A stretch of 58,537 bases of DNA from positions 1 to 58,537 of the forward strand of contig NWQQ01000004.1 of the NCBI GenBank assembly GCA_002798255.1, given 5' to 3'. The notes below the pieces were generated by a model, which saw only the letters and a program-made list of their open reading frames with translations, was not told where the DNA came from and did not search any database. The stretch comes from Lysobacteraceae bacterium NML95-0200 (GTDB lineage Bacteria; Pseudomonadota; Gammaproteobacteria; Xanthomonadales; Xanthomonadaceae). Of this stretch, positions 4,436 to 49,366 are shown piece by piece. A program made the translations under genes and the position numbers. Positions within the stretch are counted from its first letter, which is position 1; the number at the start of each line of letters is the position of its first letter.

Positions 4436-4487
4436 GAGCGCCCCAAACAAAACAAAGCGCAATTTTCACATGCTTTTGGAGCCTGTC

Positions 4488-17904: not shown

Positions 17905-17968
17905 GCAATGCTCCAAAATTGACTGGCATCAGTTTATGCCCATATCCCTATCTGTCATGCTTGTGCAC

Positions 17969-33817: not shown

Positions 33818-33870
33818 TGCCCGGGGCGGGGCTCGAACCCGCATGGTGTTGCCACCGAGGGATTTTAAGT
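33818..33870 (-). pseudogene. Severed 3' half of the chromosomal tRNA-Leu(UAA)
   Basis: On the minus strand this reads from the anticodon loop (ACTTAAAAT) through CCCTCGGTGGCAACACC, the T-arm GCGGGTTCGAGCCCCGC and the acceptor strand CCCGGGC plus discriminator A. The 5' half lies 12.3 kb away at 46205-46244; joined at the 9-bp core the two give a canonical 84-nt tRNA-Leu with AGGGA/TCCCT anticodon stem and GCCCGGG/CCCGGGC acceptor. No CCA is encoded (CACA follows). The bases to its right do not rebuild a 5' half. Confidence 0.88.
33862..33870. other. Left attachment core (att)
   Basis: ATTTTAAGT, the complement of the tRNA-Leu(UAA) anticodon loop. It is identical to 46205-46213, and a third copy lies in the element-borne tRNA at 46062-46070. 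Confidence 0.85.
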
Positions 33871-33997
33871 TCACATTTTGCCATCATTTGGCAGCAGTTA
33901 GAGGCATTTAGGCTCCGCATCTCAACAAAATGATTGGCTGCGAAGGCGGTTTGGCCAAGAGTTCGGCATCCAGAGGCATACCTAGTCCGGCACCTGC

Positions 33998-34017
33998 ACG
34001 GTTCGCGGACGGTTCGC
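33998..34017 (+). promoter_or_regulatory. Paired ACGGTTCGC repeats, left arm-type sites
   Basis: ACGGTTCGC occurs at 33998-34006 and 34009-34017, just before the integrase start. A matching pair (second copy with one mismatch) lies at 45989-46009 near the other end. The layout suggests integrase arm sites or regulator sites controlling int. Confidence 0.55.
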
Positions 34018-34046
34018 CACCCTGGGCCAACAACTGGAGCACCGCC

Positions 34047-35324: not shown

Positions 35325-35453
35325 TCTTTACCCTGAGGAATGAGAGAATAGACGCAGGTCTTAGGGCACAAAGCCCTCTGCACAATAATTAAGGGTTGGT
35401 GCCTTCAGATAGATTTCGCCCAATCTTGAATTTGAGCTTGGTATTATTCAGAA

Positions 35454-36323
35454 ATGACATCAGGAAAAACAGACACTTTTGAGCGAATTGTTAGCGCATT
35501 GGGTCAGCCGTTTTACCGTGACGAGAAATCCGCCATTTACCACGGGGATAGCTCTGAACTCTTGCTGCAAATTCCAGAGGAATCTATTGATCTTACGATC
35601 ACCTCGCCGCCGTACAACATAGGAAAAGAGTACGAAGAGGTGAAAGATGTGGATTTTTACGTCAATTGGTGCGAGGGCTGGATTCGAAAAATTCATAGAG
35701 CCACTAAGGCAAATGGTGCGCTAGCCCTCAATGTTGGATATCTTGAGGTCCCCGGGAAAGGTTTTGCGGTGCCAATACCTTACTTGCTATGGGACAAAAC
35801 AGATTTTTATCTAATTCAGGAAATTGTCTGGAACTATGGTGCCGGCGTAGCTTCAAAGAAAAGGCTTTCCCCAAGAAATGAGAAAGTTCTCTGGTATGTG
35901 AAAGATTCAGAATCCTACACATTTAATCTGGATCCAATTAGAGATCCCGATGTTAAGTACCCAAATCAGAAGAAAAACGGAAAACTTAGGTGCAATCCGC
36001 TGGGCAAGAACCCGTCAGATGTCTGGCAGATAGCAAAGGTTACATCTGGCAAAAACCGTTCATCCAAGGAGCGCGCCCCTCATCCTGCTCAATTTCCACT
36101 AGAGCTAGTTGGTCGCCTTATGAAGGGCATGTCAAATGAGGGTGATGTTGTACTAGATCCCTTCTTGGGGTCTGGATCAACGGCTGAAAGCGGCGCTGAA
36201 AACAATCGCTTTGTGATTGGTTTTGAGCTTGATAAGAAATACCTAGAGCATGCCAAGGCCCGTTTGAAGGGCCGCACCGAAAGCATAAAGATGCTTTCGG
36301 CCCAGCAAACACTTCAAATCTAG
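35454..36323 (+). CDS. Beta-class DNA methyltransferase of a type II R-M system
   Basis: The 289-residue protein has the catalytic motif IV early (ITSPPYNIG, residues 49-57) and the SAM motif late (VVLDPFLGSGSTAESG, about 225-240), the motif order of beta-class enzymes. TSPPY suggests N4-cytosine methylation, though N6-adenine is not excluded. It should protect DNA from the adjacent nuclease, which lies tail-to-tail 2 bp away. The gene and its partner are clearly AT-richer than the rest of the element, indicating separate acquisition. It is preceded by about 130 bp of AT-rich DNA likely to hold its promoter. Confidence 0.88.
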   Translation: MTSGKTDTFERIVSALGQPFYRDEKSAIYHGDSSELLLQIPEESIDLTITSPPYNIGKEYEEVKDVDFYVNWCEGWIRKIHRATKANGALALNVGYLEVPGKGFAVPIPYLLWDKTDFYLIQEIVWNYGAGVASKKRLSPRNEKVLWYVKDSESYTFNLDPIRDPDVKYPNQKKNGKLRCNPLGKNPSDVWQIAKVTSGKNRSSKERAPHPAQFPLELVGRLMKGMSNEGDVVLDPFLGSGSTAESGAENNRFVIGFELDKKYLEHAKARLKGRTESIKMLSAQQTLQI

Positions 36324-36325
36324 TA

Positions 36326-36913
36326 TTATCCGAAAAGAGTTATAAATTTGTCTCTGTACGTTTCAGGGGCGAGCCTAGCTTGCTGGCCTGTGCTCGCCAC
36401 CTGAGCTATCCAATCCGTATGATCCAACCACCCAAACCTAACCTTCAGTAATTTGGGCGTGGCGCCGCCGCTAACAAAAGCCTCAAAGTTTACGGCCAGG
36501 TAAAACCCATCTTTGCTTTTCCCGCCCGCACTTACCTGCTGGGCGTAGCTCCTATTTCCAAATATCTGAGTTTTGTTTGACGATGTCTTCAGTTCAATAG
36601 AGTAAAAGTCATCTAATACGCAAACAATGTCTTTGTCAGACTTTTCTATTTCTTTTCTCCACTGTCCTGGGAAAGCGGCTGCGACTCCAGCGGGGATTAG
36701 TTCATGCAATAGAGCGCCTATAATCTGCGGCTTCGGGAATATATCAACGCCGATTTTAAGCCCTGCTTGACCAATAGAGGTGCTGAACATCCCCTGCCAG
36801 GCATCGTTGATTATCTCAACTATGTGCGGAGTTAAGGGATGCGAGCTTATTAGCTGCTCTGTGACCAACGGCCAATCGGTTTTCGCTACTCCAGCGTATG
36901 GACTTTGAGCCAT
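36326..36913 (-). CDS. Type II restriction endonuclease (possibly ScaI-like)
   Basis: The 195-residue protein has a PD-(D/E)XK core, DIVCVLDDFYSIELKTSSNK, with Asp and the Glu107-x-Lys109 pair. Other segments include ISSHPLTPHIVEIINDAW, SIGQAGLKIGVDIFPKPQIIGALLHELIP and RFGWLDHTDW. These remind me of the ScaI endonuclease family (AGTACT cutters), a recollection that needs a profile search. Convergent pairing with a methyltransferase makes the restriction role firm. The start MAQSPYAG is preceded by AGAGGAAG. An in-frame start 10 codons upstream is possible. Confidence 0.8.
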   Translation of the reverse strand: MAQSPYAGVAKTDWPLVTEQLISSHPLTPHIVEIINDAWQGMFSTSIGQAGLKIGVDIFPKPQIIGALLHELIPAGVAAAFPGQWRKEIEKSDKDIVCVLDDFYSIELKTSSNKTQIFGNRSYAQQVSAGGKSKDGFYLAVNFEAFVSGGATPKLLKVRFGWLDHTDWIAQVASTGQQARLAPETYRDKFITLFG

Positions 36914-37369
36914 GTTCTTCCTCTGATCTCGACACAAAGTCACGAGGGTATTGGAATAGCATTACCTTGTCCATGTTGGGAGCTCCGGGGAGGCCATTAC
37001 TCAGCGGTAACGCCGCGTTACCACTCTGGCATGGTCTGGCGGGCCGCTGGCGCTCCCTGGGCAGTGCGCGCACCGCGAGACCGACCGCGTGCCCTTCTCA
37101 TGACATCTCAGGAATGACAATGGCCGGTGTCAGGAGGAACGGTTGTCCTGTTGCGGCTGGGAGCGTAGATGCCAGATAATTGGGGTCGTTAGCGAGAGCG
37201 TGCCTGAATCGACAGGACGAACCAGGACGGCCTACGGAGGGCCGACCAGTAGCGGTGGCAGTCCGCAGCTAACAGCCGAACCCGTTCCCGCCGAGTGGGT
37301 TCTCATGCTTCGCCCGGCATTGTCTCGGGGCGGCTCCGGATCTTGGCGACATCAGATTCGGAGACTCTC
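36914..37369. other. Gene-free control region between the R-M pair and the alpA-primase operon
   Basis: About 455 bp have no convincing gene; short open frames show no ribosome site or family resemblance. It holds the promoter side of the endonuclease gene and the leader of the alpA-like gene. The 17-bp perfect palindrome at 37016-37032 is the only conspicuous signal. TCCTGT (near 37146) and ACAGGA (near 37218) could form a long-range pairing. Confidence 0.6.
37016..37032. promoter_or_regulatory. Palindrome GGTAACGCCGCGTTACC, candidate operator
   Basis: Two perfect 7-bp arms are separated by 3 bases. It lies 103 bp upstream of the endonuclease start and 338 bp upstream of the alpA-like start. 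It is a plausible repressor site for either unit; the binding protein is unknown. Confidence 0.45.
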
Positions 37370-37621
37370 ATGTCCAGCACCCCTGCCCAAGACGGCAACC
37401 TCGCCGAAGAAATTTCCTTCAACGTCCCGAAGCGGTGGCTCCGCGCCCGTGAAGCTGCCGAGTACCTGGGCGTTTCCGTGCCGCACCTCGCCCGACTGCG
37501 CGAGCTGAGAAAAGGCCCGCCGTACCGCAAGTTCGGCAGCGTTGTCCTGTACGACATTCACGAGCTGGACGCCTTCGTCCTGGCGCAGCCCCGCTTTGAA
37601 ACCAAAGGGGGTGGCCTGTGA
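37370..37621 (+). CDS. AlpA/MerR-like helix-turn-helix regulator (excisionase fold)
   Basis: The 83-residue protein ends in a winged helix-turn-helix of the HTH_17/AlpA type: KRWLRAREAAEYLGVSVPHLARLRELRKGPPYRKFGSVVLYDIHELDAFV. AlpA-type proteins activate element excision genes or replication in P4-like satellites and PICIs. The start MSSTPAQDG has a GGAG site. The stop overlaps the GTG start of the primase gene, so the two are coupled. Confidence 0.85.
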   Translation: MSSTPAQDGNLAEEISFNVPKRWLRAREAAEYLGVSVPHLARLRELRKGPPYRKFGSVVLYDIHELDAFVLAQPRFETKGGGL

Positions 37622-39999
37622 GCGATTTTCTGGACACCCGAAAAGGTGAAAGCCCCGCTTCCGGGGCGACAGAAGACGGGGCTTTCGGAGCAAAGCGAGA
37701 AGGAAGCGATACTCAAGCTGAATTCTCGGTGGCACAGGCTGCCCCGGCAATCATCGACACCGCCGCCGCTGTCAGTTTCTTGCAGTGGCTCCGCCCGGAA
37801 GGCCCGTGGCTGCTGGTCGCCAAGCACCCCGAGCGGAACGGGTTCCGGCCCAAGCTGTTCGCGCCTGGGCAAGAGGCCGACCTCGCCCAGTGGCTGGCGG
37901 GCCTGTCCTCGCAGAACGTCTATTACCACCTGAACCCCTCCCGCGACGGGCTGGAGAAGAAGGCCGCCAAGTCGGACGTTACCGCCGTGCGCTTCCTGCA
38001 CGTGGATATCGACCCGCGTGCCGGGGAGGACGTTGGCGAGGAGCGCCAGCGCATCATCGGCCGCCTGACGCACAACCTGCCGAAGGAGCTGCCGCCACCC
38101 ACCGCAATCATCAGTTCCGGCGCTGGTGCCCAGGCGCTGTGGGCGCTGCGCGAGCCAATCCTCTTGGACGGCTCCGAGGCCCAGGCGGCAGAGGCCGAGC
38201 GTTACACCCGCTGGATTCAGGGCGTGTTCAGCAAGGGCGAGTCCGGCGGGGCTGACAACTGCCACAACGTGGATCGCATCCTTCGCCTGCCGGGCAGCAT
38301 CAACAACCCGGACGCCAAGAAGCGGGCCAAGGGCCGCACCGCTGCCCCGGCCACCGTCGTGGAGCTGCACCCCGAGCGCGTCTATGGGCTGGAGAGCTTC
38401 CAGCAGGCTCCGGCCCAGGGTGCCGCCGCGCCCGCCACCGTGCGCTCTTCTGGCGCGGCTCTCGCCGCTGTCCCGCTGGGCGAGGTGGAGCCCTTGGAGT
38501 CGGTGGATGCCCTCGACAAGTGGAACGTGCCGGGCTGGCTGAAGGTGCTGATTGTCCAGGGCAACGATCCCGACAACCCGGCCAAGTACCCGAGCCGTTC
38601 CGAGGCGCTGTTCGCTGCCGCGTGTGGGCTGGTGCGCCAGGGTGTGCCCGACGAGGTGATTTTCTCGGTGCTCACCGACGAGTCGTTCGGCATTGCCGAA
38701 TCGGTGGTCGAACACAAGAGCCCGGAGAAGTACGCCCGCCGCCAGATCGACAAGGCCCGCGAGGCGGTCGGCCAGGACGTGGGTTGGAATCCGACCAACA
38801 AGGCTGGCGAGCCGCTGAAGAGCCTGCACAACACCATCACGGCCCTGCGGCTGATCGGGCTGGAGTGCAGCTATGACCTGTTCCGCCGCCGGAACATGGT
38901 CGGGCACCACCAGATGCAGGAGCTTTCCGGTGAGTTCTCCGACATGGCCGAGGTGCTGATTCGGCGCGAAATTCGCTGCCGCTTCGGCTTCGATCCGGGC
39001 AAGGAGTACGTCCGCGACGCGGTGCTGGAGTTGTGCGCCCTGGGCAGCTTCGACCCGCTCCGGGATCATCTGCACGGCCTGCCCACTTGGGACGGGGCGC
39101 CCAGGCTGGACTCCTGGCTCGTTCGCTATCTGGGCGCAGAGGATTCGCCCTACATCCGGGCCGCTGGCGCTACTTGGCTCGTGGCAGCGACGGCCCGCGC
39201 CTTCGAGCCGGGCACCAAGTTCGACCACATGCTGGTGCTCGTGGGTGCCCAGGGGTGTGGGAAGTCGTCCGCGCTAAACATCCTCGCCGGGGAGTTCTTC
39301 AGCGATGCGAACTTCCTCGATGCCCAGGACACCCGCGAAGTTCTGGAGGCAACGGAAGGGGCGTGGATCGTTGAATGTGCGGAGCTGGCCGGGATGCGTC
39401 GGAAAGACGTGGAGACGCTGAAGCACGAGATCACCCGGCGAGAAGACCGGGGCCGCCCTGCCTATGCGCGGACGGTCGTGTCGGTAAAGCGTCGCTTCGT
39501 CCTGGCGGGCACCACCAACAGCGGACGCTTCCTGCACGATGAGACGGGCAACCGTAGATTCTGGCCGGTGGAGGTTGGCGAGATCGACCTGCCTGGGCTG
39601 CAAGCCGACCGCGACCAGATTCTGGCCGAGGCGCTGGCCCGCTACCGCAGTGGCGACTTCCAGTTGTTCCTGGCAGACGAGGCGCTGGAGGGTGCCCAGC
39701 AGGCCCAGGAGGCCAGACGCACCGTGGAGGATGGCCTCCTAGAGATCGCCGAAGGGCTGCACCCCGAAGGCTTCTACAGGGACACGGCAGCCATCCGCAC
39801 GGATACGGTGTATCAGTCCATGGGCATTCCGCCCGAGCGCCGGGTAGGACAGCTCGCCACCAACGTGCGCCGGGCAATGGAGGAAGCTGGGTGGAAACCG
39901 TCGCAGGGCTCCGTGCGCTGGCAGGGCAAGAAGCAGCGCCTGTACCTCTGGGCGAAGGACGAACCGCCACCGCCGCCCGTATCGGCACAACCGTTCTAA
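37618..39999 (+). CDS. Replication protein: primase-polymerase fused to VirE/VapE-type helicase
   Basis: The 793-residue protein has an N-terminal primase-polymerase-like domain (about residues 40-270) with FLHVDIDPRAGED (DxD metal site) and ISSGAGAQALWAL, then NVDRILRLPGSINNP. The C-terminal VapE-type ATPase has Walker A GAQGCGKSS (about 543-551), WIVECAELAGM as a Walker B-like segment, ETLKHEITRREDRGRPAYA, and RFVLAGTTNSGRFLHDETGNRRFWPV, which fits superfamily 3/VirE replication helicases. It probably initiates autonomous replication of the excised element. The start is GTG, overlapping alpA. The iteron-like region directly downstream supports an origin-binding role. Confidence 0.88.
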   Translation: MSDFLDTRKGESPASGATEDGAFGAKREGSDTQAEFSVAQAAPAIIDTAAAVSFLQWLRPEGPWLLVAKHPERNGFRPKLFAPGQEADLAQWLAGLSSQNVYYHLNPSRDGLEKKAAKSDVTAVRFLHVDIDPRAGEDVGEERQRIIGRLTHNLPKELPPPTAIISSGAGAQALWALREPILLDGSEAQAAEAERYTRWIQGVFSKGESGGADNCHNVDRILRLPGSINNPDAKKRAKGRTAAPATVVELHPERVYGLESFQQAPAQGAAAPATVRSSGAALAAVPLGEVEPLESVDALDKWNVPGWLKVLIVQGNDPDNPAKYPSRSEALFAAACGLVRQGVPDEVIFSVLTDESFGIAESVVEHKSPEKYARRQIDKAREAVGQDVGWNPTNKAGEPLKSLHNTITALRLIGLECSYDLFRRRNMVGHHQMQELSGEFSDMAEVLIRREIRCRFGFDPGKEYVRDAVLELCALGSFDPLRDHLHGLPTWDGAPRLDSWLVRYLGAEDSPYIRAAGATWLVAATARAFEPGTKFDHMLVLVGAQGCGKSSALNILAGEFFSDANFLDAQDTREVLEATEGAWIVECAELAGMRRKDVETLKHEITRREDRGRPAYARTVVSVKRRFVLAGTTNSGRFLHDETGNRRFWPVEVGEIDLPGLQADRDQILAEALARYRSGDFQLFLADEALEGAQQAQEARRTVEDGLLEIAEGLHPEGFYRDTAAIRTDTVYQSMGIPPERRVGQLATNVRRAMEEAGWKPSQGSVRWQGKKQRLYLWAKDEPPPPPVSAQPF

Positions 40000-40640
40000 C
40001 CACTCGGGGGCTTCGGCCCCCGTTTTGTGCGTGCCTGCCCCGCGTTCCGCGCCCCGTTCCGGGTAGGGTTCCGGGCTGGGAGCCTGTAGAGACGCGGGTT
40101 CTAGGCCCGGAACGACCGGAACGGAGAACGTGCGTATATAGGGGCTACCTCTACCGCCCAGGTGCCCACACCACACTGCTGTGGTGTAGTCCTCTGCCTC
40201 TCTCTACCTCTTACTTAATTCCTTCGTTCCGTTAGTTCCGGGGAACTAGGAGCCTGTATCTACGCGGGTTTTGGCCGGAACGCTGGCCTGGTCGATGGCG
40301 TTCCCGCGTTCCGTTCCCGCGTTCCGCCTGGGCAGCGGGGCCGCCCCGGCTGCTACTCCTGACATATCCAATTCAACTAACACATCGCGCCCGCGCACGG
40401 GAACCACCCCGCCTGTGCGCCACCCCGCCTGGGCCGCCCTCGCAGCCCCGAGAGCGACCGCCAGCACCTCGCCCAGCCGCTGGCCTGCCTGGGCCGCCCC
40501 GCCGCCCCTAGGCCCGCCTAGGAGGTGTAGCGGAACGCCCCGGTAAGTTCGAGTTACCACGCCCCGCCAGCGAGACCAGCCCGCCACCCTGGGCCGCCCG
40601 CTGCCGACCGTGGAGCGCACCGCGCAGCGGGCAGTGGCGA
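40000..40640. other. Gene-free region with iteron-like repeats, candidate replication origin
   Basis: No credible gene is seen. GTTCCG or its complement occurs about ten times between 40044 and 40326 (at 40044, 40056, 40068, 40108, 40117, 40226, 40235, 40276, 40308 and 40321) and again at 40531. Two imperfect direct copies of a roughly 35-bp block (GAGCCTGTA, 3 variable bases, ACGCGGGTT, then GGCC and GGAACG) lie at 40079-40114 and 40249-40282. An 8-bp perfect hairpin (ACACCACA with a CTGC loop) is at 40168-40187, and a short pyrimidine/AT-rich stretch lies near 40195-40225. This is the expected composition of an iteron origin next to its initiator gene. Confidence 0.6.
40079..40282. repeat. 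Two imperfect direct repeats flanking a hairpin
   Basis: Copies at 40079-40114 and 40249-40282 are 170 bp apart. They share GGAGCCTGTA and ACGCGGGTT exactly and differ in the 3-base centre (GAG versus TCT). They sit inside the candidate origin. Confidence 0.7.
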
Positions 40641-41162
40641 TCACGATTGCCGTTCAACTTCGGCCAGGAATCGCTTGAGCGCGTGGAACGCCTTGCTGTC
40701 CTTTTGTCCGTCGATCACTGCATCCTCGACATAGCCCGAAGTGGTGCTCACGCGGAGCCATGTCCTTTGTGAAGTTGTGATCTTGCGAACCAAGGTGGTC
40801 GGCACGAGAAATCCTTTGCGGGACTCTTTCGTCGCAGCGCCGAGTTCGTTGAAATTGGTGAAGGTCTCCATGATCTTGAGGTCGTAAATCTCACCGTCGA
40901 TATTCAGCTTTGCGCCCGTGATCGCATTGATGCTGTTGAAGATGCTCACCACAAGGATCGTCTCATTCGGTCTTGTCGCGCTCCAGTGAGCGCCTAGCCC
41001 GGTGCAAACCATCCCAGAGCAGGCGTTGCCGTGAGGGTTGATGCGTACCACGGCTGCATTGTCAAAACCGCTTCGGGAAACGTCCGGCCCCGTACCGGAG
41101 GTCGTAGAACATCCCGCTACGAACAAGGCGCTTGCCGCCAAACCAATGAGTTTCTTCCGCAT
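40641..41162 (-). CDS. Element-encoded lipoprotein of unknown function
   Basis: The 173-residue protein has a lipoprotein signal (MRKKLIGLAASALFVAGC, Cys18) and a mature domain with three later regions of beta character (AVVRINPHGNACSGMVCTGLGAHW, ETILVVSIFNSINAITGAKLNIDGEIYDL, TWLRVSTTSGYVEDAVIDG). No family is recognised. It lies alone on the minus strand in an otherwise plus-strand replication/packaging block and is less GC-rich, which is typical of a cargo (moron) gene. A surface or periplasmic role such as superinfection exclusion is possible but unproven. Confidence 0.7.
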   Translation of the reverse strand: MRKKLIGLAASALFVAGCSTTSGTGPDVSRSGFDNAAVVRINPHGNACSGMVCTGLGAHWSATRPNETILVVSIFNSINAITGAKLNIDGEIYDLKIMETFTNFNELGAATKESRKGFLVPTTLVRKITTSQRTWLRVSTTSGYVEDAVIDGQKDSKAFHALKRFLAEVERQS

Positions 41163-41334
41163 ATACCCTCCCTGGGTCGTTGATTATTGATGCCATTCAG
41201 TTAATCCGTTTCGACTATTCCGCCTCATTTCTTGCGAGTCAAGCAATCCGGCAGACCAGGTGCCAAAACTGATATCGCCGCCGCTGCCGGGCCGAGATCA
41301 TTTCCCTTGAGAACGCAAGCACCAGGGAATCCGC

Positions 41335-41670
41335 ATGTCACTGACCGCCCGCGCACCAGCCCAGAGAGGAATCGACCTGTATCGAATCGAGCAGGACGAG
41401 GACGAGGCCCGCGACAGCCCCGAGCGCCAGCTCGCCGCTGCCGTCCTTCTCCAGGCATGGAACGACGCAAACGCCACGCCCGAAACTGTGAAGTACGCGA
41501 AGGGAAGCGGAGGCTTCACGCCCGAGCATCTCGTCCGAACGGCGCGACGGTTCCTGACAGACAAGCGGGGCTCCTGGGCACGACAGCGCCAGCTCTTCAC
41601 GAGCGCGTTATCTGTTGATGATGAGGCCATCCGCCTGCGCGCGGTGGCCCAGTTTGGAGAGGGACACTGA
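41335..41670 (+). CDS. Hypothetical element protein
   Basis: The 111-residue protein is charged and helical with no signal and no known motif (GIDLYRIEQDEDEARDSPERQLAAAVLLQAWNDANATPETVKYAKGSGGFTPEHLVRTARRFL). It is followed one base later by the terminase-like gene, so it belongs to that operon. A role in packaging or regulation cannot be distinguished. The 172 bp before it contain no other visible signal except a weak purine-rich ribosome site. Confidence 0.6.
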   Translation: MSLTARAPAQRGIDLYRIEQDEDEARDSPERQLAAAVLLQAWNDANATPETVKYAKGSGGFTPEHLVRTARRFLTDKRGSWARQRQLFTSALSVDDEAIRLRAVAQFGEGH

Positions 41671-41671
41671 G

Positions 41672-42301
41672 ATGAGTATCAAGCCGAAGACTGGAGGCGG
41701 GGCACGCCCCGGCGCACCTGTGGGCCGGAAACGGGGCGACCGGGTACCGATGGCTGCGCTGACCGAGGAGCGCAAGGAGGTCTTCCTGTCGGAGCTACGC
41801 CGCCACGGAATCGTGAGTGCCGCCGCTCGGGCAGCCAGCCCACACGCCAAGGGGACGTGCGCCCCTTCGTTCTACATCCTGCGGAAAAACGATCCCGAGT
41901 TCGCCGCCGCGTGGGATGACGCCATCGAGCAGGCAACCGGCAGCGTCGAGCTGGAGATTCACCGCCGCGCTGTGGAGGGCTACGACGAGCCGGTCTATCA
42001 GAAGGGCGAGCTGGTCGGGACGGTGACGAAGTACAGCGACCGCCTGCTGGAGCTGCGGGCCAAGGCGCTCCTCCCGCAGAAGTACATCGAGCGCCGGGCC
42101 GTCGAACTGAGCGCCAACCTGAACGTCACCCAAGAGCTGTACGGCGGACACGCGCTGACGCTCAAGCCCGAGGACGTGCTGCTGCTCGACGAAGGCAAGC
42201 GCCAGCAGCTCCTGGGCCTGCTCACCGAGATTGCGCTGGCACGGGGCGACCTTCTGGAGGTAGAACCGGAGCCCGCTGGGCTGCTGGAGGCGGAAGCATG
42301 A
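41672..42301 (+). CDS. Terminase small subunit-like protein
   Basis: The 209-residue protein has a basic N terminus (GGGARPGAPVGRKRGDRVP) and a helix-turn-helix-like part (KEVFLSELRRHGIVSAAARAA, followed by FYILRKNDPEFAAAWDDAIEQA). The segment VELEIHRRAVEGYDEPVYQKGELVGTVTKYSDRLLELRAKAL then follows, seen in many phage proteins annotated as small terminase or phBC6A51-type. A small terminase without a large subunit is the PICI strategy for redirecting helper-phage packaging. It overlaps the next gene by four bases. The annotation rests on remembered family pattern and is moderately sure. Confidence 0.62.
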   Translation: MSIKPKTGGGARPGAPVGRKRGDRVPMAALTEERKEVFLSELRRHGIVSAAARAASPHAKGTCAPSFYILRKNDPEFAAAWDDAIEQATGSVELEIHRRAVEGYDEPVYQKGELVGTVTKYSDRLLELRAKALLPQKYIERRAVELSANLNVTQELYGGHALTLKPEDVLLLDEGKRQQLLGLLTEIALARGDLLEVEPEPAGLLEAEA

Positions 42302-42564
42302 TCGGCGACTTCCTGGCCCAGGTGGAGGGGCTTGTCAGCTTCGAGGAGGAAGCCGGGGTGCCGCCCCGGCGAACCCCGTTCGGCTTCCTGATGCCGGACT
42401 ACCAGCAGGACGAGGAAGGGCTCGACCGCTGGGAGGCCGCCTATGGGGAGAAGGCCCGAGGCACCACCCGCCTGCCCATCCCCGTACCCAGGGCAGTGCG
42501 CGATGCACCGGAGCGAACCGTCCAGCAGCCTGGAGCGCCCATCCGGCGGGGCCGCCTGGGGTAA
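42298..42564 (+). CDS. Small hypothetical element protein
   Basis: This 88-residue acidic protein (EGLVSFEEEAGVPPRRTPFGFLMPDYQQDEEGLDRWEAAYGEK) ends in a basic, proline-rich tail. It overlaps the terminase-like gene by ATGA, indicating coupling. No family is recognised. Confidence 0.55.
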   Translation: MIGDFLAQVEGLVSFEEEAGVPPRRTPFGFLMPDYQQDEEGLDRWEAAYGEKARGTTRLPIPVPRAVRDAPERTVQQPGAPIRRGRLG

Positions 42565-42690
42565 CTGGACGTTAGCAGTGGCCACCTGGGCCACCCGCTA
42601 AAAACTGAGAGCCGAGGCGGCAACAAAAAGGAATGATTCTCATCACGGAAGCCGGAATGGTCTAGCTCCGATTTCTCAAAGGTGAGAATC

Positions 42691-43416
42691 ATGTCCAAGT
42701 TGAATCTGAAGAAAATCCCGTCTCGGGCCAATGTCCAAGAGCTCCGCTCTATTCTTCGCAGCCACGCCGCCAACCTCCAGAGCCTGCGCAAGTCGCTGAC
42801 CGACGCCCGCGAAATTGCCCAGAAGCGTGCGATGGAGGAAGTCTCCAAGATCACCATGACCGCCCAGGAGCGCCAGACCTTCGCCAAGCGCAAGGCCGAC
42901 ACCCTGGTCGCAGCCCAGCGGGCCGCCGCGAAGGAGACAGCCGAGCGCCTGGCAAAGGATCTGGCGACCGCCCGCAACGTGCTGGAGCTGGGCAAGGGCG
43001 TCTATGACAACCCGTTCTCCGCGCTGGATGCCGCGACGCTGGGCAGCCCGCGCCGCGCCACCTACATGCAGAACCTCGCCAGTGCTGGCCCGGTGGCCCT
43101 GAAGAACGCCGCCGAGCGTGCCGCCTCCCTTGGCGATGCCGAACTGGCCGCCGCTGTCATCGCTGTGGTCTCGGGTATGCCGACCGACAAGCGCCCGTTC
43201 CATCCGGCTGCCGTCCTCGACATCTTCCCCGAAGAGCACGAGGTGTTCGCGCCGATGGTTGAGTTCGAGGAAGCCGAGGCCGCCCTGGCTGATGGCCTGT
43301 CGCTGTATGGCGAAGTCGTAAACGGCACCACCAACCCGACCTCCCGAATCGAACGCGCCCTGCGCGCCCTGCGCGACCGCGAAGCCGCTGCTGGCGCTGA
43401 AGGGGGTGAGGAATGA
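42691..43416 (+). CDS. Coiled-coil hypothetical element protein
   Basis: The 241-residue protein has a long, charged helix (residues about 10-100: ELRSILRSHAANLQSLRKSLTDAREIAQKRAMEEVSKITMTAQERQTFAKRKADTLV) likely to form a coiled coil, and an Ala-rich helical C-terminal half. It has a GGTGA ribosome site. Its position after the small terminase and the coiled coil would suit a capsid-size or scaffold factor, but no similarity supports this. It overlaps the next gene by four bases. Confidence 0.6.
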   Translation: MSKLNLKKIPSRANVQELRSILRSHAANLQSLRKSLTDAREIAQKRAMEEVSKITMTAQERQTFAKRKADTLVAAQRAAAKETAERLAKDLATARNVLELGKGVYDNPFSALDAATLGSPRRATYMQNLASAGPVALKNAAERAASLGDAELAAAVIAVVSGMPTDKRPFHPAAVLDIFPEEHEVFAPMVEFEEAEAALADGLSLYGEVVNGTTNPTSRIERALRALRDREAAAGAEGGEE

Positions 43417-43784
43417 ACGCCCATCTCCAATCGCTGACCGACGCCGAGCTGGCCCAGCGGATCATCGACACCCTCGACGACCGCGACGCCGCCGCCCTGG
43501 CTTCTGCCTGCCTGATGGCGCACGCCCACGGCAAAGACCGCCCGGACGTGAAGACGGCCCGCACCTGCTGCACCTTGGCCGGAGCAAACGCCCAGCGCGT
43601 GATGCCCTTCCTTGGCTATCTGCCGCTGAAGGGCTACGCCGACGCCTGGGCCGACGCCGAGCAAGGCGCACACGGCCCCGGCATCGTGGATCGCACCCAA
43701 GAACCCGGCCTGTTCGTGTTCCGTCAGCTCGGAGGCCGACTCCGCGCCAACCTTCGTTTCATCCAAGCCTCTGAGGAGATCTAA
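43413..43784 (+). CDS. Hypothetical element protein
   Basis: The 123-residue helical protein (SLTDAELAQRIIDTLDDRDAAALASACLMAHAHG, then AQRVMPFLGYLPLKGYADAWADAEQGAHG) has no recognised family. It is coupled to the previous gene by overlap and to the next by a 2-bp gap, forming a tight three-gene cassette ending in a terminator. Confidence 0.58.
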   Translation: MNAHLQSLTDAELAQRIIDTLDDRDAAALASACLMAHAHGKDRPDVKTARTCCTLAGANAQRVMPFLGYLPLKGYADAWADAEQGAHGPGIVDRTQEPGLFVFRQLGGRLRANLRFIQASEEI

Positions 43785-43786
43785 CC

Positions 43787-44068
43787 ATGGCTACCTTCCT
43801 GCTGTACCCCGCTGAACCGCACTTCCGCCGCGCCGACGGCCTGAACGCCCTCGTCGTGCCCGCTGCCGATGCAGCTTCCGCCCCGGCTGCCGCCCGTGCC
43901 CTGTGCAAGCGTGTGGAGATCGACGCCTTCGACAACTTCACCGTTGTTGAGATCGGCGCGACGACCGCCTTCGCTGTTGAGGGCCATCCGCCCGTGAGCC
44001 AGCCCGGCAACGCCGAAGGGCTGCCGTACCTGGGCCGTGGCGGCCACGAGGTCATGCTGCCGGTCTAA
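43787..44068 (+). CDS. Small hypothetical element protein
   Basis: The 93-residue beta-rich protein (MATFLLYPAEPHFRRADGLNALVVPAADA, KRVEIDAFDNFTVVEIGATTAFAVEG) has no recognised family. It is the last gene of the rightward operon, 35 bp before a clear terminator. Small beta proteins at this position in phages can be decoration or regulator proteins; no choice is possible here. Confidence 0.55.
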   Translation: MATFLLYPAEPHFRRADGLNALVVPAADAASAPAAARALCKRVEIDAFDNFTVVEIGATTAFAVEGHPPVSQPGNAEGLPYLGRGGHEVMLPV

Positions 44069-44102
44069 TCGTTCCGCTCCTGTTACTTCGACGGCACCTT
44101 CG

Positions 44103-44135
44103 CCCCGGCCCTGCAAAGCGCCGGGGTTCTTTTTG
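44103..44135 (+). terminator. Rho-independent terminator ending the rightward element operon
   Basis: CCCCGGC (44103-44109) and GCCGGGG (44120-44126) form the stem, followed by TTCTTTTT. Confidence 0.85.
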
Positions 44136-44221
44136 GCCGTCAGACAGTGCGCTCGCACGGTTCGCTGCGCCCTTGGGTGCCGCCAGCCCTGGGCAGACGG
44201 ACACCCGTGAGTAACTGCGAC

Positions 44222-44758
44222 TTACTGGGCCGCTTCTGGCAGCGCGAAGGTTCCGCGCCCGACACAGGCGATGGTGTGGCCGACACGGCGGGCAGTGTCG
44301 ATGGTGGAGCGCACCTTCTTCTGTTCCATGTCCAGTGCCTCGGCCAACTCGGCGACGGTGCGTGGGCCGCTGGCGAGCGCCGCTAGGATGTCTCCCACGC
44401 GAGCCTTGAGCCCGGCGGGCTTGGCCTTAGCCTCGGCGGTGGCCGCGCTCTCTGCAGGCTCCTCGGTGGTGCTAGACGCGGTGGCGGGGGCTGCCTCCAC
44501 GGTGGCCGGGGTGGCGGGCTCCTGCACGCCCTCGGCCTGCTCCGGCGCAACCTCGGCGGGCTCCTCCTGGGCAGCCTCTTCGACCTGGGCGAGCTGCGGC
44601 TCGATCAAGGCCCAGACCTGCTGCATGCCCTTGGCACGTTTCAGGAACTGCTTGGTGTTCTTGCCGGTGACGCTGTTGTAGTAGGCCAGCAGGTCGGCGG
44701 TGGAGACTTCGTTCAGGTCGGCGAAGCGGGTGATGGTGACGTCAGCAATGCGGATCAT
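44222..44758 (-). CDS. Element protein with C-terminal winged-helix domain
   Basis: The 178-residue protein starts at MIRIADVTITRFADLNEVSTADLLAYYNSVTGKNTKQFLKRAKGMQQVW. A roughly 60-residue Ala/Glu/Pro-rich linker leads to a winged-helix-like domain (VGDILAALASGPRTVAELAEALDMEQKKVRSTIDTARRVGHTIACVG). An AGGAGA ribosome site precedes the start. The layout suggests a DNA-binding regulator with a flexible linker. The upstream intergenic space holds an inverted repeat of the ACGGTTCGC motif. Confidence 0.65.
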   Translation of the reverse strand: MIRIADVTITRFADLNEVSTADLLAYYNSVTGKNTKQFLKRAKGMQQVWALIEPQLAQVEEAAQEEPAEVAPEQAEGVQEPATPATVEAAPATASSTTEEPAESAATAEAKAKPAGLKARVGDILAALASGPRTVAELAEALDMEQKKVRSTIDTARRVGHTIACVGRGTFALPEAAQ

Positions 44759-44900
44759 GGTGGCTCTCCTTTTCTGTTCCGGCAGCGCGACCGCCGCCGA
44801 TGACCGAATCATTGAGCAGAGCGGAGAAAAGGCAACAGCATCATGCACTTGCTGAGATTCGCCCAGCGGGGCGGGCTGCCCTGGGCCAGCTCGGCCCAGG

Positions 44901-44926
44901 CGGTTCGCTGTTTGTCGGGCGAACCG
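44901..44926. promoter_or_regulatory. Inverted repeat CGGTTCGC / GCGAACCG
   Basis: Two perfect 8-bp arms lie at 44901-44908 and 44919-44926, separated by 10 bases. It is in the spacer between two minus-strand regulator-like genes and uses the same motif as the end-proximal direct repeats. Confidence 0.5.
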
Positions 44927-44987
44927 TGCAGCGCCTGCCAAGCCCAGGGAGACCGGGCACCCGCAAGGGACACGAGGCCAGAAACCC

Positions 44988-45377
44988 TCAGCAACCATCC
45001 TTCGACGATTGAGTCGGAGGATATTGAGCCCAGAGGTCGTCATCGTCTATGTCCAGTCTGTCGTGAAAACTGCTCACTGAATCACCGTTAGTCCGAAATT
45101 CGGGAGCGCGTTCACGCAGGACAAAGTACCCCCAACGCTCAGCGAAGATTGGGTAGCCCTCCACATACATCAGCTCGTAAAGCGCCTCCCGGACGGTCGG
45201 AACAGACCGTTGAGTTCTCCCAACGGCCTCGCATATCCGCTCCACGGTAAGCCCATAGGGGCTCATCTGCAGGACAGACAAAATGTTCGCGTGGAGATAT
45301 GGAAGCGGCTTCTGTTTTCGAGCTTGACGGGAAATTGAGACCTGGCGCTGTATGCGAATGAGTTTGGTGGTATCCAT
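44988..45377 (-). CDS. Hypothetical winged-helix-like element protein
   Basis: The 129-residue protein has a basic N terminus (LIRIQRQVSISRQARKQKPL) and a wHTH-like region (LHANILSVLQMSPYGLTVERICEAVGRTQRSVPTVREALYELMYVEGYPIFAERWGYFVLRE), followed by an acidic tail. AGGAGTG precedes the ATG. The order of helix, turn, recognition helix and wing suggests DNA binding. It is less GC-rich than the neighbouring gene. It could be an element repressor; no such function can be shown. Confidence 0.62.
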   Translation of the reverse strand: MDTTKLIRIQRQVSISRQARKQKPLPYLHANILSVLQMSPYGLTVERICEAVGRTQRSVPTVREALYELMYVEGYPIFAERWGYFVLRERAPEFRTNGDSVSSFHDRLDIDDDDLWAQYPPTQSSKDGC

Positions 45378-45487
45378 GTTGCACTCCTGATGAACCGAGG
45401 CGGCACCGCGCTGCCTCGTGTGGAGCGAACTTTCTCAGGCGCAGCCCTGGGCGTCTGGACCCGCCAATAGGGCGCGATTTTCGAGAG

Positions 45488-45967
45488 CTATTTGCGGGTC
45501 TTGAGAGCGTTGCGGACGTTGCGTAACGTCACGCGGGCGTCGAGCGCCTCGCACACGGCCAGGAGTCGGCTCTCGTCGGGCAAGGGCTTCGCCCGCTGGC
45601 TGCTGCCGTAGCTGCTGAGGCCCAAGACGCGAGCGACTGCACGGATGGCCTCTAGGCTGACGCCCGAGTAGTGGCCCCGGCGCTTGCGGCCCGCCTCGAA
45701 TAGAACGGTCTCGGCAGTCTCTTGGAGGGTTAGCAGCGCGGCCTCAACGGGGGCAGCGCCAGCGGTGTGCTGGGCCGTCCATGCAACCTGTGCGCGGGCT
45801 TCTTCGGAGAGGTTTTCCCAGGCGGCAGCCATGCGCCGGTGGAATGCGGCGACTTCCTTCCGCGCTGCTGTCAGGCGCTGCTGCGCCTCCTGGGCTTCGC
45901 GCTCCTGCTGGAGGCAGGTGTCCCAGGCGGCCCGCGCCTTGGCGAGGGTGGCGTCGTCGATGCTCAT
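45488..45967 (-). CDS. Hypothetical element protein with coiled-coil N terminus
   Basis: The 159-residue protein has a helical N-terminal half rich in Ala, Glu, Gln and Arg (ATLAKARAAWDTCLQQEREAQEAQQRLTAARKEVAAFHRRMAAAW). The C-terminal portion (YSGVSLEAIRAVARVLGLSSYGSSQRAKPLPDESRLLAVCEAL) might bind nucleic acid. The frame is open further upstream, but there it would cross the tRNA gene, so MSIDDATL is used; no good ribosome site is visible. It lies 50 bp downstream of the element's tRNA-Leu on the same strand. Confidence 0.55.
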   Translation of the reverse strand: MSIDDATLAKARAAWDTCLQQEREAQEAQQRLTAARKEVAAFHRRMAAAWENLSEEARAQVAWTAQHTAGAAPVEAALLTLQETAETVLFEAGRKRRGHYSGVSLEAIRAVARVLGLSSYGSSQRAKPLPDESRLLAVCEALDARVTLRNVRNALKTRK

Positions 45968-45988
45968 AGGAGGGGTGCGCCCGCCCAG

Positions 45989-46009
45989 ACGGTTCGCTGG
46001 ACGGTGCGC
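45989..46009 (+). promoter_or_regulatory. Paired ACGGTTCGC-type repeats, right arm-type sites
   Basis: ACGGTTCGC at 45989-45997 is followed by ACGGTGCGC at 46001-46009, mirroring the pair at 33998-34017 near the other end of the element, in the same orientation. Confidence 0.5.
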
Positions 46010-46016
46010 GAGGTGC

Positions 46017-46101
46017 TGGTGCCCCGAGCCGGACTCGAACCGGCACGCCATTCGGCAAAGCATTTTAAGTGCTCAGTGTCTACCGATTTCACCATCGGGG
46101 C
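46017..46101 (-). tRNA. tRNA-Leu(UAA), complete, carried by the element
   Basis: The 85-nt minus-strand gene has acceptor GCCCCGA paired with TCGGGGC and encoded ACCA. The D-arm holds GGTAGACAC. The anticodon arm GAGCA-CTTAAAA-TGCTT gives anticodon UAA. The variable arm is long, as in class II tRNAs, and the T-arm is GCCGGTTCGAGTCCGGC. It lies inside the right end of the element, 66 bp downstream of the disrupted tRNA-like sequence, and differs in sequence from the chromosomal gene it would replace. Its anticodon loop holds a further copy of the att core. Confidence 0.95.
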
Positions 46102-46166
46102 TTGTAAAAACAACAGGTTACAGCCTTTTGTTACTTGTCATCAACGTGTCCCGGAGCGGGTTCCGG

Positions 46167-46244
46167 GGTGCCCGTCTGGTGCGGAATCGGCAAGGACACA
46201 GGTAATTTTAAGTCCCTTGCGTCTACCAGTTTCGCCACCCGGGC
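46167..46244 (-). pseudogene. Chimeric tRNA-Leu: native 5' half fused to degenerate element-derived 3' half
   Basis: The minus strand from 46244 reads GCCCGGGTGGCGAAACTGG through the anticodon loop to the core at 46205, identical in design to tRNA-Leu(UAA). After the core the sequence is element-derived and ends in GACGGGCACC. Only five of seven acceptor pairs form, the anticodon stem is broken (AGGGA against TTACC), and the T-arm is shortened. It is probably not a functional tRNA. Confidence 0.8.
46205..46213. other. Right attachment core (att)
   Basis: ATTTTAAGT, identical to 33862-33870; the junction between chromosomal tRNA 5' half and element DNA. Confidence 0.85.
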
Positions 46245-46253
46245 GCGGGGGTC

Positions 46254-46281
46254 TAAATCATCACGCCATTGCCGGGTACAA
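46254..46281 (-). promoter_or_regulatory. Candidate promoter of the original tRNA-Leu
   Basis: On the minus strand, TTGTAC (46276-46281) and GATTTA (46254-46259) are 16 bp apart, placing a start near the first base of the tRNA. It would read through the chimeric tRNA into the element-borne tRNA-Leu. The rest of 46282-46576, up to metG, shows no gene. Confidence 0.4.
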
Positions 46282-46576
46282 GCCCTTGCCAGCAGCTGAG
46301 TTTCTGACTTGTGTTCCAGGGCTGCATGGCCTTGGATGTCATGCGCGCATGGGGGCGTAGTCTGTGCGTTTTTTGTGCAATGCGCAACCATTGCCATCGT
46401 TTGGCTGTCATGGAGCCGCCTTGCCCAGTCAGAATCGCACTATCGATAAACAGCACTTGGGCACAGCCATGTATTGAATTGACAGCGGCAATCAATGCAT
46501 CTCCTTGGGCTGTGCCAAACCCCGACCCAACAACTGCATGCGATAATCCCGCGCTCGTTTTAACCGGAATCCGCTC

Positions 46577-48634
46577 ATGGCGCGCCAAGCCCTCGTCACC
46601 ACTGCCCTGCCCTATGCCAACGGCCCGCTGCATCTGGGGCATCTGGTGGGTTATATCCAGGCCGATATCTGGGTACGGGCGCGGCGCATGGCAGGTGACA
46701 CCGTACATTTTGTCTGTGCCGACGACACCCACGGCACCCCCATCATGCTGGCGGCAGAAAAGGCCTGCACCACGCCGGAGGCCTTTATCGCTGCCATCCA
46801 GGCCAGCCACGAGGCCGACTTTGCCGCCTTTCATGTCGATTTCGACCACTACGGCTCCACGCATTCGGCGCACAACCGCGCCTTGACCGAAGCCATCTAC
46901 CGGGCACTGGATGCTGGCGGCCATATCGGCCGGCGCACGGTATCGCAGCTGTACGACCCCGAGCGCGGCATGTTCCTGCCCGACCGCTACGTCAAGGGCG
47001 AATGCCCCAAATGCGGCGCGGCCGACCAGTACGGCGACAACTGCGAAGCCTGCGGCGCGACCTATTCGCCCACCGAATTGCTGAGCCCCAAATCCGCCGT
47101 CTCCGGCGCCACCCCGGAGCTGCGCGATTCCGAACACTATTTCTTCGAGCTTGGCCAGTTCGAGGGCTTCCTGCGCCAATGGCTGGCCGGCAATGTCGCC
47201 CTTGCCGGGGTCAAGGCCAAGCTCGCCGAATGGCTCGATGGCGAAGGCGGCCTGCGCGCCTGGGACATCTCCCGCGACGCGCCGTATTTCGGCTTCGAGA
47301 TTCCCGGCGCACCGGGCAAGTATTTCTATGTCTGGCTGGATGCGCCGATCGGCTATCTGGCGAGCTTCAAGGCACTGTGCGAGCGCGAGGGGCTGGATTT
47401 TGACGCCTTCCTCAACGCCGGGAGCCAGGCCGAGCTGCATCACTTCATCGGCAAGGACATCGTCAACTTCCACGGCCTGTTCTGGCCGGCGGTGCTGCAT
47501 GGCGCCGGGCTGCGCGCCCCGACCCGTCTGCACGTCAACGGCTATCTCACCGTCGATGGTGCCAAGATGAGCAAATCGCGCGGCACCTTCATCATGGCGC
47601 GCAGCTGGCTCGACCACGGCCTGCCGCCCGAAGCGCTGCGCTATTACTTCGCCGCCAAGACCAGCGGCGGGGTGGAAGACCTCGACCTCAACCTCGGCGA
47701 CTTCGTCAGCCGCGTCAACAGCGATATCGTCGGCAAGTTCGTCAACCTCGCCAGCCGCTGCGCCGGCTTCATCGAAAAACGCTTCGCCGGACAACTGGCC
47801 GCCGAACTGCCCGATCCGGCGCTGTACGCCAGCTTCATCGAACGCCTTACCGCCATCCGCGCCGCCTATGCCGACAACGACGCCGCCCAGGCGCTGCGCC
47901 TGGCCATGGCGCTGGCCGACGAGGCCAACAAATACATCGACGAAGAAAAACCCTGGGTGATTGCCAAGCAAGAAGGCGCCGATGCCCGCCTGCAAGCAGT
48001 CTGTACCCAGGGTCTCAACCTGTTCCGGGTGCTCGCGCTCGCCCTCGCCCCGGTACTGCCCGCCACCGCCCGGCGCGTGGCCGAGTTCCTTGCCGCGCCG
48101 CTGCAACACTGGCAGGACTGCGATCAGCCACTCACCGGCCAGCACATCCAGCCCTACCAAGCCCTGTTCACCCGTATCGACCCCAAGCACATCACCGCCA
48201 TGACCGACGCCAATCGCGACACCCTCAAGCCCGCCGACGCCCCCCCGGCCAAGACCGAGAAAGCTGCTGCCAAGCCTGCCGAGAAGCCCGCAGCCGAAAG
48301 CCAGTACATCGGCATCGACGACTTCGCCAAGCTCGACCTGCGCATCGGCAAAGTGCTCGAATGCAGCTTGGTGGAAGGCTCGGACAAACTGCTGCGCTTC
48401 CTGCTCGATGCCGGTGATCTTGGCCAGCGGCAGATTTTCTCCGGCATCCGCGCCAGCTATCAGGAGCCGGAAAAACTCATCGGCCGCAACGTGGTGTTTA
48501 TCGCCAACCTCGCCCCGCGCAAGATGCGCTTTGGCCTCAGCGAAGGCATGATCCTCTCCGCCGGTTTCGATGGCGGCAGCCTTGCCCTGCTGGATGCCGA
48601 CAGCGCTGCCCAGGCCGGCATGCCGGTGCGTTGA
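46577..48634 (+). CDS. metG: Methionyl-tRNA synthetase with C-terminal tRNA-binding domain
   Basis: The 685-residue class I synthetase has HLGH at residues 19-22 and KMSKS at about 330-334. A knuckle-type zinc site is formed by CPKCGAADQYGDNCEACG. After an Ala/Pro/Lys linker, the C-terminal EMAPII-like domain (IDDFAKLDLRIGKVLECSLVEGSDKLLRF) provides dimerisation and tRNA binding. It charges initiator and elongator tRNA-Met. It is divergent from the interrupted tRNA-Leu and is followed by a CRISPR leader and array. Confidence 0.97.
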   Translation: MARQALVTTALPYANGPLHLGHLVGYIQADIWVRARRMAGDTVHFVCADDTHGTPIMLAAEKACTTPEAFIAAIQASHEADFAAFHVDFDHYGSTHSAHNRALTEAIYRALDAGGHIGRRTVSQLYDPERGMFLPDRYVKGECPKCGAADQYGDNCEACGATYSPTELLSPKSAVSGATPELRDSEHYFFELGQFEGFLRQWLAGNVALAGVKAKLAEWLDGEGGLRAWDISRDAPYFGFEIPGAPGKYFYVWLDAPIGYLASFKALCEREGLDFDAFLNAGSQAELHHFIGKDIVNFHGLFWPAVLHGAGLRAPTRLHVNGYLTVDGAKMSKSRGTFIMARSWLDHGLPPEALRYYFAAKTSGGVEDLDLNLGDFVSRVNSDIVGKFVNLASRCAGFIEKRFAGQLAAELPDPALYASFIERLTAIRAAYADNDAAQALRLAMALADEANKYIDEEKPWVIAKQEGADARLQAVCTQGLNLFRVLALALAPVLPATARRVAEFLAAPLQHWQDCDQPLTGQHIQPYQALFTRIDPKHITAMTDANRDTLKPADAPPAKTEKAAAKPAEKPAAESQYIGIDDFAKLDLRIGKVLECSLVEGSDKLLRFLLDAGDLGQRQIFSGIRASYQEPEKLIGRNVVFIANLAPRKMRFGLSEGMILSAGFDGGSLALLDADSAAQAGMPVR

Positions 48635-48918
48635 AGAGCAAAGATCACAAATGAGGAACTGGGAGCGGCAAAGCCCGCCCCAACCTCAATTTGCCTGGCG
48701 ATTTTTTAGCCAACTTTTCACCCAAAAACCAATACCCTTGCCCCCACCCCATCCGCAAAAACAGGAATACCCTTGCAAATCAAGCAATTGCAAAAAATTC
48801 GATGTCATCCGCAAGGCTCAAAATCTGGTGAAATTTTAGCCAACTTTTTGGCAGCAAAACGACCGCCCAAAACTGCCTTGCAACCTATTGATTGCCAAAC
48901 AAAAATTTTTGCGCTAGA
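48635..48918 (+). promoter_or_regulatory. AT-rich CRISPR leader with internal repeats
   Basis: This gene-free stretch between metG and the first repeat is AT-rich, unlike the surrounding DNA. It contains a perfect 15-bp direct repeat, TTTTAGCCAACTTTT, at 48704-48718 and 48834-48848, and AATACCCTTGC twice (48731 and 48766). CATCCGCAA also recurs. Its position on the side opposite the degenerate last repeat identifies it as the leader. Confidence 0.7.
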
Positions 48919-49366
48919 GTCCCCTCACTGCCCCGACTTTGAGGGGATTAAGACGCGGTTGACAATATTCCAGCAGAACGAGGCCAGGTCCCCTCACTGC
49001 CCCGACTTTGAGGGGATTAAGACGTACCTTTGGTACCAATGTAACGGAATCCGAAAGTCCCCTCACTGCCCCGACTTTGAGGGGATTAAGACATTCCTGA
49101 ACACATTGGTTAATGGAATGTTGGCGGTCCCCTCACTGCCCCGACTTTGAGGGGATTAAGACTCCCAAAGCGATACCTACCGGAAGCCCGAAGGCTGCCC
49201 CCTCACTGCCCCGACTTTGAGGGGATTAAGACCATGGACTGCTGCGCGAACTTCTTGCTTATTCGTCCCCTCACTGCCCCGACTTTGAGGGGATTAAGAC
49301 GCATTAAATGCCTATGTCAACACTTTTTTTTCGGCGTCCCCTCACTGCCCCGACTTTGAGGGAGGA
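48919..49366 (+). CRISPR. CRISPR array 1: seven 36-nt repeats, six spacers
   Basis: The repeats start with GTCCCCTCACTGCCCCGAC and end with GAGGGGATTAAGAC. CCCCTC and GAGGGG can form a 6-bp stem. Repeats start at 48919, 48988, 49057, 49127, 49197, 49265 and 49336. Spacers are 33, 33, 34, 34, 32 and 35 bases, all different. The fifth repeat has C instead of T at position 2. The seventh loses its last nine bases (GATTAAGAC replaced), marking the trailer end, so the array reads rightward. The repeat differs entirely from array 2. No cas gene is in the window. The subtype cannot be fixed; a type III or other 36-nt family is possible. Confidence 0.97.

Follow-up and report, generated by a model that had tools for sequence, protein, structure and literature searches.

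A satellite-like island very probably splits a host tRNA-Leu(UAA) gene and supplies a whole replacement beside attR

What becomes of a tRNA gene when a mobile element splits it and rebuilds nothing? This question is raised by the window, the stretch of 58,537 nucleotides from Lysobacteraceae bacterium NML95-0200 analysed here, which is one contig of a 2.38-Mb draft assembly (46 contigs, rated 100% complete). The native tRNA-Leu(UAA) gene is interrupted there by a 12.3-kb element (33871-46204) at a 9-bp core of the anticodon loop, ATTTTAAGT. Rejoining of the halves and their match to relatives placed the 3' half with the core, which constitutes attL, at 33818-33870 and the orphan 5' half, adjoining the native 5' flank, at 46205-46244, both on the minus strand; a sequence search located the core at 33862-33870 on the integrase side and at 46205-46213 in attR. 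With the flanks rejoined at the core, ARAGORN returned a complete canonical tRNA-Leu(UAA), identical at 85/85 nucleotides to the intact gene of a relative of the same genus (G001), which confirms the original prediction of a chromosomal gene cut in its anticodon loop. The element shares with the host gene these 9 bp only: unlike a classical tRNA-restoring island, it carries no 3' half and rebuilds no tRNA. Across the window ARAGORN predicted no tRNA at either junction, the attR chimera included, so that on prediction a functional chimeric tRNA at attR is ruled out and the element-derived 3' part restores nothing, as had been proposed.

The sole tRNA called by ARAGORN in the window is another tRNA-Leu(UAA), complete with an encoded CCA, borne by the element on the minus strand at 46017-46101. 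It is only 68% identical to the rebuilt native tRNA, and thus corresponds to the different, full-length gene announced on the same strand about 100 bp from the core. A third core copy, unnoticed in the first reading, lies in its own anticodon loop (46062-46070). The spacer that separates it from the attR core (46102-46204, minus strand), presumably an attP arm, is shared with Gulbenkiania (locus L143, 97/104 positions identical) and with a viral contig (L147, 101/104). Rfam found 46 tRNA genes in the genome. ARAGORN, applied at the Rfam match sites, assigned the leucine anticodons CAA, CAG, GAG and TAG once each and UAA in the element only, so that no second intact tRNA-Leu(UAA) was found in the 46-contig draft and the native gene appears to have been replaced whole by a foreign copy, as originally claimed. 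BLAST of the genome with the 5' side of the split gene listed that gene and Leu-CAA only; such a search would miss divergent copies, since the tRNA of the element itself was not listed.

The empty site was sought in relatives. Each of the 16 same-genus genomes searched (G001-G016) has an intact tRNA-Leu(UAA). The 3' neighbour is the same as in the window in G001, G006 and G010 (87, 89 and 81% DNA identity over about 1.35 kb) and is matched in G009 and G013 at 73 and 71%. The 5' flank is common to G006 only among the relatives compared (77% over 187 bp), and the empty site is therefore better shown on the 3' than on the 5' side. These relatives have a single tRNA-Leu(UAA) rather than an adjacent pair, and a two-tRNA tandem at the empty site is rejected on this ground. 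In the window the 5' flank leads to metG (46577-48634), which adjoins the tRNA; among the relatives searched, the metG matches lie apart from those of the tRNA, and the 5' flank of the window must thus have been rearranged. Beside metG, at 48773-49150, a translated open reading frame contains regular repeats (SPHCPDFEGIKT), possibly a CRISPR array.

The explanation that we favour, and hold with high confidence, is that a satellite-like island splits the host tRNA-Leu(UAA) gene and supplies a whole replacement beside attR. The tyrosine integrase would recombine the 9-bp attP core with the anticodon loop of the host gene, and integration would destroy that gene because the core is all that is shared. 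The complete tRNA-Leu(UAA) about 100 bp inside attR would then take over the decoding of UUA and part of that of UUG. A self-contained tRNA would free the integrase from matching the host 3' half; only the anticodon loop would have to match, an arrangement suited to transfer between distant hosts. We infer that the cell expresses, charges and needs the replacement. Loss of the element by deletion should therefore be costly, as had been argued, but the claim that it is hard to lose would not cover precise excision, since the native gene would then be regained.

The same arrangement was looked for beside related integrases. That of the window is 97-99% identical to integrases of Gulbenkiania mobilis and two viral contigs and 88-90% identical to those of Pseudomonas duriflava, a Halopseudomonas MAG and a third viral contig, and a Rhodocyclales MAG holds a fragment; more distant matches occur in 6/398 genomes of the order and 23/369 of the class (its own genome included in each). 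None of 50,697 phage records matched at 1e-40, and a single match, at 35% identity, was found in 72,556 plasmid records. The search of viral contigs gave 39 loci, of which 14 were added, 22 weak ones were left out (L162-L183) and 3 were known already. The final set comprises 50 integrase loci, after removal of L103 (27% identity) and of L099-L101, L105 and L106, duplicates of L143, L142, L144, L147 and L146.

A full replacement tRNA is present in 17 of the 50 loci. Fourteen show the two orphan halves together with a complete but divergent tRNA of matching anticodon (4 Leu-UAA, 7 Thr-CGT and 3 Thr-TGT); the 13 besides the window include some close kin of each other, and because the anatomy recurs in them it is not due to chance. 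The three further carriers are L160, whose integrase end is cut off, L149, which lies in a tandem array, and L143, at a non-tRNA site in Gulbenkiania. In all 17 the replacement is co-directional with the split gene or its 5' half (with the core in L143 and L149) and its 5' end lies 85-132 bp from the core; in the 14 resolved cases its anticodon is that of the split gene. This geometry comes from a scan for minus-strand tRNAs with three anticodons, and the unfiltered tRNA lists show no other orientation. The core search used 8 bases; the 7-bp Thr-TGT cores of L109 and L110 were found by eye and then by motif. Classical rebuilding is seen in 13 of the 50 loci. In 11 of these, 42-44 of 44 positions match the 3' half of the rebuilt tRNA; L220 is borderline (37/44), and L144 was classed by a by-eye reading of its junctions. 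In many of the remaining 20 loci the contig ends, and in others no tRNA half or distal end was found; L111, with an intact Thr-CGT about 24 kb away and no resolved junction, is counted in neither class. Viral contigs account for 11/17 replacement and 0/13 classical cases, so the proportions of the two modes reflect sampling.

Could the island instead be a decayed tRNA-restoring one, which once carried an identical 3' half and kept a tRNA left from tandem insertion or imprecise excision? The integrase tree lends this some support. All 17 replacement loci group in one 26-row clade (support 100/99) of a 49-integrase tree, together with seven unclassified loci and two classical ones, L108 and L144; L144, whose integrase is 88% identical to that of the window, is part of a tandem array and has kept a 3' half of the classical kind. 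Three changes of mode, the fewest possible, are enough for the tree, and one gain of replacement with two reversals is a history that could fit. The 68% identity between replacement and native tRNA and the narrow spacing kept in 14 records speak against it, and we consider decay unlikely as an account of the present locus, possible as it is as an origin story.

A still less probable reading makes the replacement incidental phage cargo, serving translation or countering a tRNA-cutting defence, in a host that tolerates the loss of its own gene because UUA is rare. UUA does make up only 0.11% of codons (98/85,671, in 221 mechanically predicted open reading frames over 300 kb), and the loss of tRNA-Leu(UAA) might therefore be tolerated; bldA of Streptomyces is a case that bears on this point. 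On the side of the favoured explanation, single UUA codons occur in dxs and murF, both above an NCBIfam cut-off, and one in a PBP2/FtsI-type gene that scores lower than the curated cut-offs; such genes are essential in most bacteria. A 301-bp query around the tRNA of the element also matches 161 of 50,697 phage records, and 18 of the 20 phage matches listed lie at an annotated tRNA-Leu. Mere cargo, however, would hardly be expected to carry the anticodon of the split gene in 14/14 cases and for three isoacceptors, on the same strand and always 85-132 bp from the core, nor would it leave 12 of the 13 classical loci with a single tRNA of the target anticodon in the stretch fetched, the rebuilt one (L144 has none). 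Finally, the joining of unrelated contigs in a 46-contig draft genome has a negligible probability, as both junctions lie within one contig and junctions of this type are also found in viral contigs and in other genomes, that of Pseudomonas duriflava among them, a recurrence that rules out an assembly artefact.

How the replacement supplied by the island would be transcribed is a separate matter. The original prediction had a transcript from the native promoter run through the broken half into the replacement, and the geometry would allow it. A promoter scan of 45950-46450 found none. We also scored 12 gaps between core and tRNA against 500 single-base shuffles each, with a promoter matrix. 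In L148 the sequence GTGACT-18-TATAGT ends 8 nucleotides before the tRNA and was equalled by 7/500 shuffles; L149 has a near copy of it (2/500), and these two promoter-like sequences argue against read-through as a general rule. The gap of the window contains a weak candidate (47/500; 25 in L143 and 44 in L151), and its native 5' flank is no better, with 244/500 shuffles scoring as high. In the other 7 of the 12 gaps the score is nothing unusual (L107 393, L156 402, L146 413, L158 416, L142 421, L155 442 and L109 474), so that the gaps give no common answer. In the minimum-energy fold of the read-through RNA the orphan half pairs with the replacement tRNA, a result that, like the empty promoter scan, weighs against the favoured explanation.

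What kind of element carries this tRNA? The tyrosine integrase, which sits beside attP, starts at 33930 or 34047 (34047-35324, plus strand; Pfam PF00589, phrog_1, with Arm-DNA-bind_3 just below the cut-off). It is followed by two cargo genes, an N6/N4 DNA methyltransferase (35454-36323, plus; PF01555) and a ScaI-type restriction endonuclease (36326-36943, minus; PF09569), then by a small helix-turn-helix protein with a putative AlpA-like role (37295-37621, plus; PF12728), a primase-helicase with a VapE-like domain (37618-39999, plus; PF05272, phrog_256 and others) and a terminase small subunit-like protein (41615-42301, plus; phrog_4044, with no Pfam match). Among the matches of the element proteins scanned, a subset of the open reading frames, none belongs to capsid or tail families. 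Integrase, helix-turn-helix protein, primase and packaging gene without structural genes among the scanned proteins is the PICI-like combination, and by gene content the element may be described as a satellite-like restriction-modification island. The scanned open reading frames of L148, L107 and L142 have similar content, with a terminase match in L148 and L142 and not in L107. The cargo beside the integrase (35454-36943 in the window) varies among the near-identical L099, L104 and L105, and this restriction and nuclease site is a possible defence hotspot. In L104, L144-L145 and L146 a second integrase or phage-like gene set adjoins the element; a by-eye reading of the translations suggests capsid, portal or terminase-like open reading frames in these sets.

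One relative lies inside a phage. In the viral contig L147 (IMGVR_UViG_3300014012_000008) a LUZ100-like T7-type phage has a near-identical element inserted in its tRNA-Leu(UAA) gene, immediately upstream of its integrase; in the LUZ100 paper, this tRNA is noted beside the phage integrase (PMC10134795). The flanks 3872-4567 and 17059-18184 match LUZ100 at 2024-2712 and 2704-3829 with 89% identity, and the overlap of the two matches falls precisely on the core. Compared with LUZ100, the phage portion of this contig shows additional joins, which may be genuine or produced by assembly. Such an insertion is at most suggestive of mobilisation by a helper.

The replacement of a host tRNA by an integrating element has been described before. 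Guerrero-Bustamante and Hatfull (mBio 2024, PMC10865867) named tRNA-dependent lysogeny in mycobacteriophages and report experiments in which the actinobacteriophages Fionnbharth, cluster L and Gaia need their own tRNA for lysogeny, integration at secondary sites when the phage tRNA is inactivated, and mycobacteriophages that similarly switch between rebuilding and replacing; they add that the prevalence of this lysogeny outside actinobacteriophages needs study. The island shares with these phages a tyrosine integrase, an encoded tRNA of the same isotype, a host tRNA that is not rebuilt, a core of similar length in the tRNA gene (9 bp, against 8-17 bp), close relatives that rebuild, and integration at a secondary site (PMC10865867). 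The targets differ, being Lys-TTT, Ile2-CAT and Leu-CAA there (PMC10865867) and Leu-UAA, Thr-CGT and Thr-TGT here, where the replacement is moreover co-directional and 85-132 bp from the core. The published carriers are whole temperate phages tested by experiment (PMC10865867), whereas ours is a 12-kb proteobacterial satellite-like island known from sequence; with no capsid or tail family among its scanned proteins, it would work like tRNA-dependent lysogeny in a different kind of carrier. In Sinorhizobium meliloti, Lo5R7ANS-like prophages inactivate the host tRNA-Leu(UAG) and supply a foreign isoacceptor (PMC11476347); these cases differ from the window in being prophages, in involving another isoacceptor and in coming from two strains. 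Prophages without a replaced tRNA are also reported (PMC12429752). Because of tRNA-dependent lysogeny and the Sinorhizobium case, the principle of replacement is not new. Classical islands of the Islander database (PMC4383910) share the tyrosine integrase and the tRNA target with the window element, which, unlike them, has no 3' half and rebuilds nothing. PICI-type and helper-embedded satellites, as presented in PMC10111431, likewise have an integrase, a helix-turn-helix protein, a primase and a terminase small subunit, a likeness in gene content, and as with the helper-embedded ones a relative of our element lies inside a phage genome.

In the literature searched we found no description of a proteobacterial satellite family with a replacement tRNA. 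What is new is thus a natural proteobacterial family of satellite-like islands, lacking recognised virion genes, that use a replacement tRNA tightly linked to attP against three target isoacceptors; close relatives within it follow either mode, rebuilding or replacing, and there are, at sequence level, signs of cassette exchange. It bears on how an element replaces a probably needed host gene, on integration host range and on why mobile elements carry tRNAs, and for annotation it is a caution that a tRNA gene taken as 'native' may be part of a mobile element.

Comparison of tRNAs with spacers leads to a further, tentative reading, somewhat short of even in our judgement: the replacement tRNA may be a swappable host-range cassette, exchanged independently of attP, with an integrase that needs only the conserved anticodon loop. 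The window and L147 have the same replacement, and the tRNAs of the window and L143 are 79% identical despite their shared spacer. Conversely, L158, L148, L150 and L152 have an identical replacement, though the spacers of L158 and L148 agree at only 55/118 aligned positions. The native tRNAs of the L148, L150 and L152 loci are 85, 77 and 90% identical to their shared replacement, a range that a 3' half of the classical kind would hardly cover. In L107 (86%), L151 (88%) and L152 (90%) the replacement is near the native tRNA, so a broad host range is not needed for every case. If the cassette reading is true, the same satellite could enter the matching tRNA genes of distantly related bacteria, and even that of a phage by which it could be carried.

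Two minor observations concern the core. In Gulbenkiania mobilis (L143/L099) the element, still carrying its tRNA, occupies a non-tRNA site with the core ATTTTAAGT and an intact host tRNA-Leu(UAA) lies elsewhere, a situation that recalls the secondary sites of mycobacteriophages. The replacement tRNAs of L142 (14503-14590) and L146 (18155-18242) have ACTTAAACT in place of the core ACTTAAAAT, a change that may shield them against the integrase of the element itself; that of the window, unlike these two, keeps the core.
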